Assembly (NCBI RefSeq): GCF_030812295.1
Contig: NZ_JAUSSK010000003.1
Coordinates: 186,001 to 250,000 of the forward strand
Source of the DNA: Luteibacter jiangsuensis
GTDB taxonomy: Bacteria; Pseudomonadota; Gammaproteobacteria; Xanthomonadales; Rhodanobacteraceae
DNA length: 64,000 bases
Direction of reading: 5' to 3'
A model generated the notes under the pieces. The model was not told the DNA's origin. It saw nothing but the letters and a program-made list of their open reading frames with translations, and did no database searches. Position 1 is the stretch's first letter; every line of letters starts with the position of its first letter. Of the stretch, positions 35,617 through 40,629 are shown piece after piece. A program made the translations under genes and the position numbers.

Positions 35617-36543
35617 ATGCGTAAGACTCTTATTGCCACGGCGATCTGCCTCGCCATCGGATTTGCCATGCCGGCCATGGCCGACGACACCCAGACCGGA
35701 TCCTCGGGTGCCAGCGCGCAGCGCAGATCGATTGCCGTGCAGTACTCCGATAGCTCCACCTATACGGACAGCTCGACCCACAGCCGGACCGACACCACGT
35801 CCGGATCGTTCAACACCACCAACGCCATCTCGTACACCGTGCTCAACGGAAGCGTCAGCAACGTAGGCGTGAGCGGCATCGGCAACATCGCCCGTAACCT
35901 GGGTGACGCCAACGGCGGACGCGGCGGCAGCGGCGGCGACGGCTACGGTGCGGTCGGTTACGGCGGCACGGGCGGATCCGGCGGTGACGGCGGCAACGCG
36001 CGTGCACGCGGTGCGGTCGGTGGCGACGGTTCCGCTTCGAGCGGCGACGCGGGTGCGTTGACCGCCTCCGCGGGCGGCGACGGTTCCGGCGATGGCGGCA
36101 ACGCCAACGGCGACGGTGGCAGGGCGAATGCGCGCGGTGCGGGTGCCGACACGGCGACCGGCGGATCCACGGCCAGCACCGGTGGCGCAAGCGCCAGCAC
36201 GGGCGGCGCGGGAACCTCCGGCGACGCGACCGCAACGGCCGCGGGTGGAACCGGCACGGGCGGCGCAGGCGGCACGGCGATGGCGGCCGGTGGCGAAGGC
36301 GGTGCGGGCGGCGCGGGCGCGTCGGGTACGGGTGGTGCTGGCTCGGGTGCCGATGGCGGCGCCGGCGGCGCGGGTGGCACGGCCTATGCCGATGCGGGTG
36401 CGTTCGACATGTCCAACAGCATGGGCAGCGCGGGCGCGGCAGCCGCCGGCATCTCCAACTTCGCGCAGAACAGTGGCGCGGCGTCGTTGATCCAGCAGGG
36501 CGTGAATGTCCAGGCCAACCTGAGCGTGGGTTCGGCTCCGTAA
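35617..36543 (+). CDS. exported Gly/Ala-rich low-complexity protein, candidate amyloid/fibre subunit
   Basis: The family is not firmly recognised. The 308-residue product has a signal peptide ending at AMPAMA (residue 22). A Ser/Thr/Asn-rich part follows (about 30-97), including NAISYTVLNGSVSNVG. A Gly/Ala/Ser/Thr/Asp-rich stretch (about 98-265) is dense in GGxGG and has no Cys or aromatic core. A conserved-looking tail contains ISNFAQNSGAASLIQQGVNV. An AGGAGA Shine-Dalgarno fixes the ATG. It heads a five-gene cluster with a C39 peptidase and a coiled-coil/barrel protein, the layout of Fap functional-amyloid loci, where it would take the FapB/FapC place. That role is inferred. Confidence 0.75.
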   Translation: MRKTLIATAICLAIGFAMPAMADDTQTGSSGASAQRRSIAVQYSDSSTYTDSSTHSRTDTTSGSFNTTNAISYTVLNGSVSNVGVSGIGNIARNLGDANGGRGGSGGDGYGAVGYGGTGGSGGDGGNARARGAVGGDGSASSGDAGALTASAGGDGSGDGGNANGDGGRANARGAGADTATGGSTASTGGASASTGGAGTSGDATATAAGGTGTGGAGGTAMAAGGEGGAGGAGASGTGGAGSGADGGAGGAGGTAYADAGAFDMSNSMGSAGAAAAGISNFAQNSGAASLIQQGVNVQANLSVGSAP

Positions 36544-36566
36544 CGGCTGGACCGGTAGCAAAGGGA

Positions 36567-36594
36567 ACCACGGGGCGCTCCGGCGCTCCGTGGT
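36567..36594 (+). other. strong RNA hairpin after the low-complexity gene
   Basis: ACCACGG (36567-36573) pairs with CCGTGGT (36588-36594), and GCGC pairs inside with GCGC, giving about 12 stacked pairs on a four-base loop. There is no T-run. It lies between the first and second genes of the exported-protein cluster. It may protect the first gene's mRNA or let only part of the transcription through, so that the structural subunit is made in excess. Confidence 0.55.
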
Positions 36595-36633
36595 CATCCG
36601 AAGGGAAGCACCAGGACCTTCAGGAGAACACCC

Positions 36634-36999
36634 ATGCGGCAGCAATACGAACATCGGGCGCGCCGGGCACTGGCCCTGATTGCCCTGGCTTGCGTCGGCG
36701 GAACGGCGTACGCCACGCCTCCCGCTAGTGAACCGCCACCGGCCGCGTTCGGCCAGGCCACTTCCCTCGAACAGCTGCAGGCCATGACCGGAGGCAGCGG
36801 GACCACGAACAACATCAATCAGCAGACGCTCAACGGCACGATGAGCGACACCGAGGCGAAGAACACGATCAGCGGAGGCAATGTCGTCTCGGGCAGCGCT
36901 TTCGACAATTCGGCGGGCTTGCCGACGGTGATCCAGAACTCCGGTAACAACGTGCTGATCCAGAACTCCACCATCGTCAACGTGCGGATGAATCCATGA
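36634..36999 (+). CDS. small exported protein of the Fap-like cluster
   Basis: The 121-residue product has a signal peptide ending near AYATPP (residue 27), then EQLQAMTGGSGTTNNINQQ and a C-terminal block GLPTVIQNSGNNVLIQNSTI. The function is unknown. The C-terminal block resembles the tails of the first and fourth genes of the cluster (an IQNS/IQQ motif with Asn), suggesting related folds or a common export signal. A GGAGAA Shine-Dalgarno precedes the ATG, and the stop overlaps the C39 peptidase start by 4 bases. Confidence 0.8.
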   Translation: MRQQYEHRARRALALIALACVGGTAYATPPASEPPPAAFGQATSLEQLQAMTGGSGTTNNINQQTLNGTMSDTEAKNTISGGNVVSGSAFDNSAGLPTVIQNSGNNVLIQNSTIVNVRMNP

Positions 37000-37679
37000 A
37001 GGCCGCCTGTGCCCTCGCTCTCTTTCTCGTCGTCGCGGCGCCTGCCGTGCCGGCGATGAAGGCGGAGGTACAGACCAGCCCCGGTACTTCGTATCCGGTG
37101 CGGATGACGAGCCTGAAGGAGGCGCGCTTCCGCAACACGATCCGGCAGAAATACGACTTCAGTTGCGGCTCCGCCGCCGTCGCCACGCTGTTGACTTACC
37201 AGTATGGCTACCCGGTCGACGAGCAGTCCGCGTTCGATGTGATGTTCACCCATGGCGATCGCGCGAAGATCGGCAAGGAAGGGTTCTCGTTGCTGGACAT
37301 CAAACGATTCCTCGCCTCTCGTGGCTTCGAGGCCGATGGCTTCGAGGTGCCGCTGGAGAAGCTCGACAATGAGGGCGTCCCCGCGATCGTATTGATCAAC
37401 GAACGCGGCTATCACCACTTCGTCGTGGTGAAGGGTTACAAGAACGGCCGCGTACTGGTGGGCGATCCAGCCCGGGGCACACGCGCCATGTCCAGGCGGC
37501 GATTCGACGCGATGTGGAACAACCGCGTCGTTTTCGTCATCCACAACCAGCGTGACCGCGCCATCTTCAACAGTCCACGCGACTGGGCGGTCGCTCCCGC
37601 GGCACCCATCGGAGACGGCATCCAACGCAATGGGCTAGAGCCACTGGTGATGCCCAAGCGCGGTCCGGGGGACATATGA
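36996..37679 (+). CDS. exported C39-family cysteine peptidase (FapD-like)
   Basis: C39 peptidases usually cut after double-glycine leaders; in Fap loci FapD is a periplasmic member needed for amyloid export. The 227-residue product has a signal peptide (about 1-20). The catalytic set is visible: Q51 (oxyanion), C57 in KYDFSCGSAAVA, H141 in YHHFVVVKG and D157 in VLVGDPARGT. There is no ABC-transporter domain, unlike bacteriocin exporters. It is translationally coupled to both neighbours by ATGA overlaps. The activity is likely; the substrate is unknown. Confidence 0.85.
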   Translation: MKAACALALFLVVAAPAVPAMKAEVQTSPGTSYPVRMTSLKEARFRNTIRQKYDFSCGSAAVATLLTYQYGYPVDEQSAFDVMFTHGDRAKIGKEGFSLLDIKRFLASRGFEADGFEVPLEKLDNEGVPAIVLINERGYHHFVVVKGYKNGRVLVGDPARGTRAMSRRRFDAMWNNRVVFVIHNQRDRAIFNSPRDWAVAPAAPIGDGIQRNGLEPLVMPKRGPGDI

Positions 37680-38245
37680 AAACACGAATACTGATCATCG
37701 CGATCACCCTCGGCGGTGCCTGCGCCACTGGCGAAGCCGCCGATTTTCCCGCGAACCGGAGCGTGTCCGACGTGCGCCTGGACCGTATCCGTGGCGGGTT
37801 CGATCTCGGTGACAACTTGCGTGCGTCGTTCGCGCTACAGCGAACCGTGCTGATCAACGGCATGGAAACGATGCGCACGACCATCACCGTTCCCGACATC
37901 GCGAACATCACCCGGGAACAGGCGGCTGCCCTGCAGGATGCGTTGCGAACCACCGTCGTCACCAACGGGGCCGGGGGCATGGCGGGCACGGTGCCGGCAT
38001 CCTCGGTGCAGGGCACGAGCGCTTCCACGCCGGCGTCCGACGGTGCGACGACGACCCTGGCGACCGTCTCGGCCGCGCTGCCGAATTCAGCGCTGCCAGG
38101 CCTCATCGTGCAGAACTCGCTCGACAACCAGGCCATCACGGCCACCACCACCATCGACGCGTCGGTCAACAGTGCGCGGATGCTCGAAAACGTCCGCATG
38201 GCGGAGTCGGTCCAAGACGCGGTGATCCAGTTCCGGGGGAATTGA
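37676..38245 (+). CDS. exported protein of unknown function in the Fap-like cluster
   Basis: The 189-residue product has a signal peptide (about 1-21). It has a short LDRIRGGFDLGDNLRASFAL segment near the N-terminus, a central Thr/Ala-rich part, and the C-terminal block LIVQNSLDNQAITATTTIDA. The RGGF segment looks like a leader-type or docking motif, but this is a guess. The start overlaps the peptidase stop (ATGA), and the barrel gene follows 3 bases after the stop, so it belongs to the same transcript. Confidence 0.75.
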   Translation: MKTRILIIAITLGGACATGEAADFPANRSVSDVRLDRIRGGFDLGDNLRASFALQRTVLINGMETMRTTITVPDIANITREQAAALQDALRTTVVTNGAGGMAGTVPASSVQGTSASTPASDGATTTLATVSAALPNSALPGLIVQNSLDNQAITATTTIDASVNSARMLENVRMAESVQDAVIQFRGN

Positions 38246-38248
38246 CGC

Positions 38249-39640
38249 ATGTATCGCAATGGCAGGGTGATGCAGGCTAAGACGTGCGCGGGTGCCCTGG
38301 CATTCGCGGTGCTTCCGATGTGGATCGGCGCCTGTCTCGCGCAGGAGGCCACCATCGATCCGGTCTTGCGCGAGAAGATAGACGCGCAAGGCAGGCGCAT
38401 CGATGCGATGCGTAGCCGCATGGCGGAACAGCTCGCCGAACTCGAGCAGATGAAGCGCGAGCTGGCCGTGCAGGAAATGAACTACAACGACCTGCGCAAG
38501 GCGGTCGGCCTCAACGCGCTGGAAGAGGCGCGCGGCGGTTCCGCCGCGCTTGCCGACCCGCGCGCGCAGGCCACGCCGGGGCAGGAGGTCCCGGGCGCGC
38601 CACCGCCCGGCGCGCCTCCGGCGGGAAGTTCCGGGCAGGTGGTCGCCACGCAGCCCGTGGGACGCCGGCCGGAAACGGATGAACGTCCGCCCGAGGTCGC
38701 CCCGATCTTCGACCAGCCCGGCGTGCTCACGCCCAAGGGCAAGCTGATCGTCGAACCTTCCTATCAGTACGGTTATTCGTCGAGTGACCGCGTGGCCCTG
38801 GTCGGCTACACGGTGATTCCCGCGATCCTGATCGGCCTGGTCGACGTGCGCCAGGTGAAGACCACCACGCAGACAGGCGCGGTGGCGTTCCGCTACGGCC
38901 TCACCAATCGCATGGAGGTCGAAGTACGCATTCCATACGTCGACATACACACAGACACGATCAGCCGCGAGATCTTCACCGGTACGGCACAGGATCGCCT
39001 CTTCACCACGAGCGGCAAGGGCCTCGGCGACATCGAGGCCACGTTGCGTTACCAGATCAACGACGGTGGTGCGGACAAGCCGTATTACGTCGGCTGGTTC
39101 CGCGCCAAGTCGCGAACGGGCCGCGATCCCTTCGAAGTCACCAGCGACTGCGTGACGCGCTGCGTGGAGAACTTCACCGGCACGGGGCTGCCATTGCGCA
39201 ACCCGACGGGGTCGGGCTTCTACTCGGCACAGCTGGGCGTTACCTGGCTGTACCCATCCGATCCGGTGGTGTTCTTCGGCAACCTCAGTTACCTGCATAA
39301 TTTCGAGCGGAAGAACGTCAGCCGTAACGTACTTCTTGCCGGCAAGCAGTTCCTCGGCGACGTGAAGGCAGGCGACATCGCCGACATCAGCATCGGCATG
39401 GGCTTGTCCTTGAACGAGAAGGCGTCGATCAGCATCGGCTACGACCAGGCGTTCGTCGGCCGCACCACGCAGAACGACCATGCTTTGCCCGGCTCCGCGC
39501 GGGTGACCCTCGGCTCGCTGCTGGTCGGTGGCTCCTACCGCTTCAACGACAAGGAAACGTTGAACGTGACGCTCGGCGTGGGCGTGACCGGCGATACACC
39601 GGATACGACGATCACGGTGCGCGTCCCCATTACGTTGTAG
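38249..39640 (+). CDS. coiled-coil plus beta-barrel outer-membrane protein (FapF-like exporter)
   Basis: The 463-residue product has a signal peptide ending near ACLAQ (residue 32), a heptad-rich coiled coil (about 38-88, e.g. MAEQLAELEQMKRELAVQ) and a Pro/Gly-rich linker (about 105-150). The C-terminal domain (about 160-463) shows alternating beta-strand patterns and ends in a strand (TTITVRVPITL). This signal - coiled coil - linker - barrel order is that of FapF, the trimeric pore exporting Fap amyloid in Pseudomonas. A later ATG at 38270 is possible. The function by homology is likely; the substrate would be the Gly-rich protein. Confidence 0.75.
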   Translation: MYRNGRVMQAKTCAGALAFAVLPMWIGACLAQEATIDPVLREKIDAQGRRIDAMRSRMAEQLAELEQMKRELAVQEMNYNDLRKAVGLNALEEARGGSAALADPRAQATPGQEVPGAPPPGAPPAGSSGQVVATQPVGRRPETDERPPEVAPIFDQPGVLTPKGKLIVEPSYQYGYSSSDRVALVGYTVIPAILIGLVDVRQVKTTTQTGAVAFRYGLTNRMEVEVRIPYVDIHTDTISREIFTGTAQDRLFTTSGKGLGDIEATLRYQINDGGADKPYYVGWFRAKSRTGRDPFEVTSDCVTRCVENFTGTGLPLRNPTGSGFYSAQLGVTWLYPSDPVVFFGNLSYLHNFERKNVSRNVLLAGKQFLGDVKAGDIADISIGMGLSLNEKASISIGYDQAFVGRTTQNDHALPGSARVTLGSLLVGGSYRFNDKETLNVTLGVGVTGDTPDTTITVRVPITL

Positions 39641-39774: not shown

Positions 39775-40629
39775 ATGCACGCACGTCCACATCGTTACGC
39801 CAAGGCCACCGCGGGCCTCGCCATCGCTTCGCTAGCCGTCCTGGGAGCCGCAGCGCATGCGCAGGACAGCAACAAGAAATCCCAGTCGCCGGCGCTGGAC
39901 AACGTCAGCGTGTGGGTGGGCGGCTACTACACCAGCAACGACACGACGATCGGTGCGAACACGGGCATCTTCAACACCAGCGGTGACGTGAACCTCGAGG
40001 ACGACCTCGACTTCAAGAAGCACAAGACCGTGCCTCGTGTCCGCCTGGACTTCCTGATCGGCGAGCACCAGGGTTTCGCCTTCGACTACTACGAGGTCGA
40101 CCGCTCGCACTCCAAGACGCTGTCCGAGCAGATCAACTTCCTCGGTAATCCCATCGCCGCGAGCGCGCGCGTGAAGGGCGATCTCAAGTTCACCTTCGGC
40201 AGCGCAGCGTACAAATGGTGGTTCGGTACGGGCGACGATGTATTCGGCGTGGGCCTGGGCGCGGCGTACTACAAGGTCAAGGCGAGCATCTATGGCACGG
40301 CCACGGTGGCCGGCCAGACCTTCCAGGACGGATCGGCCACCGACACCAATGCATGGGCGCCCAACTTGCAGCTTGGCTGGCGGCATGCGTTCAACGACCA
40401 GTGGCGCATGTATTTCAACGCGTCCGGGGTGAAGAAGAACGGCGGCTCGCTCAATGGCCACATATGGGATGCGGCGCTCGGCGTGGAGTGGTTCCCGTGG
40501 CAGAACGTCGGCTTTGGCGCGGAGTACGCGTACACGAAGATCAAGCTGCACCAGGACAAGCGCAATTACGACCTCGATCTCGACATGAAGCTCAACGGGC
40601 CTGCCGCGTACGTCCGTTTCCGCTTCTGA
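39775..40629 (+). CDS. outer-membrane beta-barrel protein of unknown function
   Basis: The 284-residue product has a signal peptide ending at AAAHAQ (residue 30). The mature part has alternating hydrophobic strands (VSVWVGGYYTSNDT, FTFGSAAYKWWFGTG, VGFGAEYAYTKIKL) and a terminal Phe (YVRFRF), the usual outer-membrane barrel ending. It lies 134 bases after the FapF-like gene on the same strand with its own GGAG ribosome-binding site. It may or may not belong to that cluster. No specific family is recognised. Confidence 0.75.
   Translation: MHARPHRYAKATAGLAIASLAVLGAAAHAQDSNKKSQSPALDNVSVWVGGYYTSNDTTIGANTGIFNTSGDVNLEDDLDFKKHKTVPRVRLDFLIGEHQGFAFDYYEVDRSHSKTLSEQINFLGNPIAASARVKGDLKFTFGSAAYKWWFGTGDDVFGVGLGAAYYKVKASIYGTATVAGQTFQDGSATDTNAWAPNLQLGWRHAFNDQWRMYFNASGVKKNGGSLNGHIWDAALGVEWFPWQNVGFGAEYAYTKIKLHQDKRNYDLDLDMKLNGPAAYVRFRF

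Follow-up and report, generated by a model that had tools for sequence, protein, structure and literature searches.

A probable sister branch of the Fap fibre-export system with a Gly/Ala-rich cargo in Luteibacter jiangsuensis and its relatives

We analysed a 64,000-nucleotide stretch of the Luteibacter jiangsuensis genome (NCBI RefSeq assembly GCF_030812295.1, contig NZ_JAUSSK010000003.1, positions 186,001 to 250,000 of the forward strand; hereafter the window), in which five genes, p1-p5, occupy positions 35617-39640 of the + strand. We believe that this cluster is a sister branch of Fap, the fibre exporter known from Pseudomonas (fapABCDEF), and that in this branch a FapD-type C39 peptidase and a FapF-type outer-membrane pore would serve a Gly/Ala-rich exported protein, and we put the probability of this reading, with the mechanism proposed below, at roughly two in three (about 0.68). 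What is new here, as far as the sequences tell, is a double-glycine leader in p2 and p4 behind a signal-like N-terminus. Our literature search, which covered open-licence papers outside bioRxiv, brought up no description of either the branch or the leader.

A conserved five-gene cluster

A sequence-only reading of this DNA had described five coupled genes for exported proteins. The cluster is real, and the boundaries and couplings given there were reproduced:

35617..36543, + strand: p1, exported Gly/Ala-rich protein of 308 amino acids (aa), putative major subunit; orthologues in 13/13 kin loci
36634..36999, + strand: p2, small exported single-repeat protein of 121 aa with a double-glycine leader, recognised by its profile match to p4
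36996..37679, + strand: p3, exported C39 cysteine peptidase of 227 aa, FapD homologue; match to PF03412 at E 1.4e-20
37676..38245, + strand: p4, exported FapE counterpart of 189 aa with a double-glycine leader, recognised by hhalign and by its slot
38249..39640, + strand: p5, FapF-type outer-membrane pore of 463 aa (coiled coil, Pro/Gly linker, barrel)

The p2/p3 and p3/p4 pairs overlap by ATGA, p4 and p5 are spaced by 3 bases, and p1 and p2 by 90 bases. Each of the five proteins (5/5) has an N-terminal hydrophobic stretch that, judged by eye, resembles a Sec signal. The order p1-p5 is identical in 13/13 named kin loci (11 Luteibacter, 1 Dyella, 1 Rhodanobacter), which are the records matched via the pore gene, and such conservation disfavours chance neighbours. 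Within the own genus, the pore gene is present in 13 of the 14 genomes listed in the order sample, with the source genome counted. Among the fetched branch loci, 33/39 have profile matches to all five proteins; one of the 39 (L116) has a FapF match alone. Near-copies occur among the rows (e.g. L017/L091 and L106/L107), so these counts are not independent; L104 was too short to be usable and p1 was not identified in L056. The pore gene is not always last: it lies on the opposite strand in L055 and L057 (convergent with p4), L060, and L117, where it stands head to head with p1. We found no further copies in the own genome, in which FapF, p4 and p2 each gave a single match.

The peptidase and the pore

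Against the NCBIfam FapD model (NF058616), p3 scores E 1.4e-40 (139 bits, cut-off 330), nearly equal to its match to FilB (E 9.8e-40). The FapF model (NF058560) matches p5 at E 1e-38 (133 bits, cut-off 700), and FilC matches it far more weakly at E 7.4e-11. In addition, residues 145-460 of p5 match the FapF sequence of PDB entry 5o67 at E 3.9e-24. We do not let the NCBIfam cut-offs decide, because a canonical FapD (L052, 261 bits) also falls below 330, with another (L139, 420 bits) above it, and because 0/274 genomes of the class sample attain the FapF cut-off of 700. An AlphaFold2 (AF2) model of p5 built from 14 near sequences has low confidence (predicted local distance difference test, pLDDT, 47) and consists of helices at residues 38-86 and 88-95, an unstructured linker and a barrel; with this low-confidence model, Foldseek against the PDB returned FapF at all of ranks 1-18 (top E 2.8e-12). 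The sequence-only reading had likened these two proteins to FapD and FapF and tied the comparison in part to their matching the corresponding profiles or folds. Both do match, p3 by profile and p5 by profile, PDB sequence and fold, with both profile scores below the NCBIfam cut-offs.

The peptidase also keeps its catalytic motifs. The Cys motif is present in 51/52 p3 proteins of the branch, the exception (L060) being a partial open reading frame (ORF) at the edge of its stretch, and the His motif and the DP Asp motif are present in 52/52.

37164..37166, + strand: codon of the putative catalytic Cys57 of p3 (DFSCG), from conservation of the Cys motif

A branch apart from canonical Fap

In a FapD tree of 73 rows, the branch forms a clade of 43 rows (support 100/99) separate from the 25 rows of canonical Fap (100/98), with 5 distant rows, and its stem measures 1.03 changes per column. 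The tree includes 5 of the 13 named kin loci and was made without L051, L060, L067 and L146, which are cut, broken or doubtful copies. The suggestion that this could be a new branch of Fap is supported by this separation.

A branch profile of the pore matches 86/299 genomes sampled from the order, with 53 genomes at 577-733 bits and 37 at 178-229 bits; among the matches listed, none lies between 229 and 577 bits, and one genome (G550) has weak matches only. Five genomes (G012, G495, G517, G524 and G554) carry both systems, indicating that there are two systems and not one that is drifting. For the 37 low-scoring genomes, 12 loci were fetched and FapE was found in 12/12; in one of these, L052, all of FapA-FapF are matched in canonical order, every one below cut-off. 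In wider samples, the FapF family was found in 49/274 genomes of the class, and the branch profile matched 47/398 genomes of the phylum, weak matches counted. Separately, L118-L124 have FapF-like barrels at 226-265 bits with no FapD gene and no cluster on the fetched side, so they were kept out of the branch list; L120-L122 have a p4-like ORF near the stretch edge on the opposite strand.

Like Fap, the branch has a FapD-type C39 peptidase, a FapE counterpart and a FapF pore in the order D-E-F, with repeat-bearing exported proteins upstream. Unlike Fap, it has a Gly/Ala-rich cargo with one core, a p2 that itself bears a leader, GG in p4 at the position of GR or GK in FapE, and a separate FapD clade, and no FapA or three-repeat FapB/FapC was found. 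Fap is described as evolutionarily fixed, with the three imperfect repeats of FapB and FapC almost invariable (PMC12822426). Because p1 and p2 have one repeat-like core each instead of three repeats, we do not regard the branch as canonical Fap. It does belong to the wider FapD-FapF export superfamily, since a FapD-like C39 peptidase and a FapF-like pore adjoin, and co-located homologues of the two have been noted in further phyla (PMC6173800). The sequence-only reading recognised no clear FapA, and none of the six scanned window proteins matches NF058617 at E 1; the absence of FapA is common in Fap as well (PMC3792158, PMC12822426).

p4 is the FapE counterpart and p2 is its relative

Two genes had been listed simply as encoding exported proteins, and for both of them that description can be improved. 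By sequence, p4 corresponds to FapE: in an hhalign comparison with 27 canonical FapE sequences it scores E 5.8e-7 over 37 columns, comprising the leader and the part that follows it, and the controls, for which we took reversed FapE (0.3), FapA, FapB, FapC and a barrel of no relation, lie at 0.13-0.42. Its slot between the FapD-type and FapF-type genes is also that of FapE. The small exported protein p2 has a leader and a single repeat, and its relatives are p4 (profile match E 1.1e-11, a pair run without a reversed control) and the C-terminal core of p1 (E 2.8e-8; reversed p2 control 0.42). We used NCBIfam models for FapA, FapB, FapC and FapE because Pfam, proposed earlier for this check, gives no match even on the canonical proteins of L052.

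The Gly/Ala-rich protein p1

p1 is a Gly/Ala-rich domain followed by a single repeat-like core, and not a three-repeat FapC.

35887..36411, + strand: Gly/Ala-rich low-complexity domain of p1, residues 91-265, from composition and Gly spacing
36412..36540, + strand: C-terminal repeat-like core of p1, GISNFAQNSGAASLIQQGVNVQANL, from its profile match to p2

The frame is open upstream to 35347, and we place the start at the Met at 35617 because the alignment with the nearest orthologues starts there. Across 14 sequences the length is 302-315 aa, and p1 behaves as a coding sequence, with third codon positions most divergent against 7/7 orthologues (e.g. 57/44/148 against L010). Residues 91-275 contain 71 G and 43 A, and the whole protein is 27% G and 7.5% N+Q, in agreement with the earlier description of a Gly/Ala-rich low-complexity chain in place of Gln/Asn repeats. 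A lag-3 excess of Gly is seen in 14/14 sequences (z 2.1-4.6), all of which are kin and not independent. We considered a polyglycine-II bundle for the domain and rejected it, since despite this modest excess AF2 gives p1 a pLDDT of 32 and no secondary structure; for the same reason we claim no fold for the Gly-rich domain. FapC was also rejected as a relative of the core, its profile match of 0.61 being none.

The bulk composition of p1 varies by lineage, with the C-terminal core still recognisable. Gly makes up at least 20% of 42/49 p1 proteins, and the other seven (L055, L057-L060, L062, L063) have either an N/D/S-rich composition or multiple copies of the repeat. Several Q/N-rich copies of the core are found in L057 and L060, which lie outside or near the Gly-rich clade, and the multi-repeat p1 of L057 scores E 0.081 against the FapB model. 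Six of the seven (all except L060) are placed in the FapD tree, and all six fall outside the 36-row clade (99/84) that contains the Gly-rich loci, suggesting that the Gly/Ala-rich form probably arose once. The p1 proteins of L058, L062 and L063 have long N/S/D- or N/S/T-rich stretches (e.g. NSDNSDNSVDTADSNND) together with a similar C-terminal core. It is likely that p1 is exported to the surface as a fibre or coat, and possible that the Gly/Ala-rich form is an amyloid.

Double-glycine leaders in p2 and p4

Leaders cut by C39 peptidases are reported to have hydrophobic residues at -12, -7 and -4, with the cut after GG, GA or GS (PMC10885120). Leaders of this kind are present in p4 and p2, and a similar site occurs in p5:

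36760..36795, + strand: p2 leader TSLEQLQAMTGG, behind the signal-like N-terminus, with the proposed FapD site directly after it
37763..37798, + strand: p4 leader VSDVRLDRIRGG, behind the signal-like N-terminus, with the proposed FapD site directly after it
38504..38539, + strand: leader-like site VGLNALEEARGG where the p5 coiled coil ends, residues 86-97

Across the branch, p4 has RGG in 52/52 proteins, L or M at -7 in 52/52, a hydrophobic residue at -12 in 51/52 and at -4 in 46/52, and all three in 45/52, where Ala and Tyr are taken as hydrophobic in all leader counts and the -7 residue and the GG or G[RK] belong to the search pattern. In the 14 nearest sequences the L, R, G and G of the p4 leader are invariant, as are the Leu at -7 and the GG of p2. 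For the wider p2 set (48 proteins, from 51 after dropping two p1-type rows and one ORF that crosses a masked stretch), L at -7 with xGG is found in 43/48, and -12, -7 and -4 are all hydrophobic in 31/43; the p2 of the source genome has Thr at -12. Canonical FapE has RG[RK] at the same site in 26/27 sequences and TGK in 1/27, with hydrophobic residues at -12 and -7 in 27/27, at -4 in 23/27, and at all three in 23/27. One such FapE (L139; 345 bits, cut-off 250) carries the site as KDSEMAELRGR-YV.

A matrix made from 49 distinct p4 leaders, with no FapE in training, places its best window at this site in 27/27 canonical FapE proteins, and in 22/27 cases FapE outranks every other ORF of its locus (median 39 ORFs). 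The strict motif is rare elsewhere, occurring in 3/395 other signal-like ORFs of the fetched loci, one of which is a branch FapF (L056), and among the 269 window ORFs of at least 80 aa in p2 and p4 only. FapA, which by eye appeared to be a further leader protein, was rejected because the p4 matrix puts it first in 0/19 loci.

Judged by eye, branch FapF proteins have a like site in 34/52 cases, with L at -7 and R at -3, followed by GG in 19/52 and by GA, AG, GM, GT or AR in 15/52. Its position is residues 78-147 of the ORF, except for one overlong ORF with residue 296. The p5 site coincides with the end of the modelled helix, in a low-confidence part of the model, and its L and R are invariant in the 14 nearest sequences.

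The published work on FapD concerns the same proteins. FapD is periplasmic and its Cys is needed for secretion; Fap proteins are said to have no canonical C39 sequences, and the FapD target to be unclear; in mass spectra, no FapE peptides are seen before about residue 70; and GG/GA motifs precede the FapF barrel, for which cleavage was proposed (all in PMC5557850). The FapD substrate is given as yet to be determined in PMC6173800, and PMC12822426 names FapE and FapF as its presumed targets. Based on the sequences, we propose that the double-glycine leaders of p2 and p4 are FapD cut sites, as we do for the corresponding site of canonical FapE and, more cautiously, for that behind the FapF coiled coil.

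In six other FapF/C39 loci (L061, L064-L068) the p4 matrix gives a clear window only in L064 and weaker ones in L061 and L065, and no convincing leader window in L066, L067 and L068; we therefore do not claim the leader as general. At L064:1274-3540, two adjacent proteins have leader-like windows, LSDNQLDQMTAG and LNEQQLDSIYAG (matrix scores 17.4 and 3.3), and because this locus is distant the leader may extend beyond Fap.

The p1-p2 gap and neighbouring genes

A strong predicted hairpin is found in the p1-p2 gap in 14/14 loci.

36567..36594, + strand: conserved RNA hairpin in the p1-p2 gap, from single-sequence folds

The Luteibacter versions (11 sequences) have 12 predicted pairs, 4 with a compensatory change, and one of these four is broken in 4/11 sequences. 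By eye, the Dyella and Rhodanobacter versions have a long stem and, no more than a few bases after it, a T run, and that of the source genome has no T run. Between 35200 and 39900 no sigma-70-like promoter was found, and a terminator scan gave 3 hits where shuffled sequence has a mean of 3.0. The hairpin is possibly an attenuator or an mRNA-stabilising element.

Adjoining the cluster is p6 (39775-40629), an outer-membrane barrel-like protein slightly under the OMP_b-brl cut-off, which follows the cluster in 11/11 Luteibacter loci; in those of Dyella and Rhodanobacter we did not find it. Other regions of the own genome (L001, L002, L004) contain two C39 matches in neighbouring ~700-residue frames, the size of an ABC (ATP-binding cassette) exporter, and, at a separate place, another C39 match within a 4182-residue open frame.

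Comparison with other export systems

Curli (csg) also involve export of unfolded fibre subunits across the outer membrane, as in the proposed branch, but they use another pore and are not known to involve a C39 peptidase; in the profile scans, no match of p1-p5 was named curli. The Fil putative pilus, compared here through the NCBIfam FilB and FilC models only, shares a C39 peptidase and a FapF-like protein, but FilC is the far weaker match for p5. C39 ABC exporters of bacteriocins and microcins share the peptidase and the leader with -12, -7, -4 and GG (PMC10885120), whereas in the branch the peptidase is free and exported, the leader stands behind a Sec-like signal, and there is no ABC transporter among p1-p5. 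COG4313 channels (4rl8) share the barrel fold, at Foldseek ranks 19 and 20 behind FapF, but are uptake channels with 13-14% identity and no peptidase partner mentioned in what we cite from PMC6173800.

Proposed mechanism and alternatives

From their N-termini, we would expect p1-p5 to cross the inner membrane by Sec. By homology and fold match, p5 would form a FapF-like outer-membrane pore, presumably a trimer, with a periplasmic coiled coil. In the periplasm p3 would cut p4 and p2 after the double-glycine leader, and possibly p5 too, where its coiled coil ends. Once freed of the leader, p2 and p4 would be exported and assembled as minor, nucleating or anchoring subunits. p1 may leave unfolded via the same pore and join at the surface by means of its C-terminal repeat-like core; the Gly/Ala-rich domain would then make up most of the fibre or coat. 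Through the hairpin that follows its gene, p1 could be produced in excess of p2-p5.

A number of observations weigh against this reading. At E 1, p1, p2 and p4 match no NCBIfam model of FapA, FapB, FapC or FapE, and p4 matches none of these even at E 10. In profile comparisons p2 scores 0.0012 against FapB (probability 20%), 0.0065 against FapE and 0.041 against FapC, and the scores of the p1 core are weak or nil throughout, at 0.025 against FapB, 0.17 against p4, 0.4 against FapE and 0.61 against FapC. AF2 produces no confident structure for p1, which fits an unfolded chain and proves nothing. As for the leaders, 5/48 p2 proteins lack xGG, the R or K at -1 of canonical FapE is an unusual residue for a C39 site, the FapF site is absent in 18/52 of the branch, and canonical FapF is leader-like, by eye, in about 3/27 only. 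A crude hydrophobicity rule, for which ORF starts are frequently too far upstream, detects a signal in 40/52 p4, 43/51 p2 and 19/27 FapE, and among these signal-bearing ORFs the strict motif occurs in 36 p4, 23 p2 and 0 FapE. No NCBIfam leader family matches p4, and one model for ribosomally synthesised and post-translationally modified peptides touches the source p2 at E 0.027, in 1/14 members.

These points leave room for other explanations, of which the one we take most seriously, while still thinking it unlikely, keeps the exporter and changes the product: p1 would be disordered and Gly/Ala-rich, a coat, brush or adhesive that p2 and p4 hold at the surface, and not an amyloid. One repeat-like core instead of three repeats, the low N+Q and high G contents, and the shift of the p1 bulk between Gly-rich (42/49) and N/D/S- or repeat-rich forms with the core kept would all suit such a coat. 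On the other hand, the core is related to p2, and the several Q/N-rich core copies of L057 and L060 are the usual make of an amyloid subunit. It is also conceivable, but we consider it quite improbable, that p3 cuts p5 alone, after the coiled coil, as a gate, and that the GG motifs of p2 and p4 serve for binding; the leader-like site in 34/52 branch FapF proteins and the FapF cleavage proposed in PMC5557850 would agree with this, but the p4 site is far better kept (52/52) than that of p5, and the mass spectra in the same source point to FapE.

Two further alternatives concern the identity of the cluster itself. The nearly equal match of p3 to FilB, with the FilC match of p5, would allow a Fil-type putative pilus system instead of a Fap relative. 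We regard this as very improbable, given that p5 fits FapF far better (1e-38), its fold matches FapF and p4 matches FapE, in a comparison that covered Fil through the FilB and FilC models and with a tree that has no named Fil proteins. That p1-p5 are relics, or unrelated exported genes adjoining by chance, could appeal to p1 and p2 having nothing except weak matches to known families, but it is scarcely credible when the order is kept in 13/13 loci, all five proteins recur in 33/39, and the p3 catalytic motifs are retained. We therefore retain a sister branch of Fap as our interpretation of the cluster.

Implications for the FapD-FapF superfamily

Since the GG is intact in the FapE counterpart of the branch, it exposes what appears to be a cryptic leader in canonical FapE. 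This leads us to suggest, tentatively and with somewhat less than even confidence, that across the whole FapD-FapF superfamily FapD peptidases read a leader behind a Sec signal (in FapE, in p2 and p4, and in FapF after the coiled coil), so that one protease would mature the nucleators and trip the pore gate, and that in the branch the Q/N amyloid has been replaced by a Gly/Ala-rich polymer keeping one amyloid-like core.

Fap has been described as fixed, yet the sister branch is common, found in 53/299 sampled genomes of the order, and has a different cargo. Its conserved leader names exact residues for what FapD would cut. As a biomaterial, a secreted Gly/Ala-rich polymer that has its own exporter may also be of interest.

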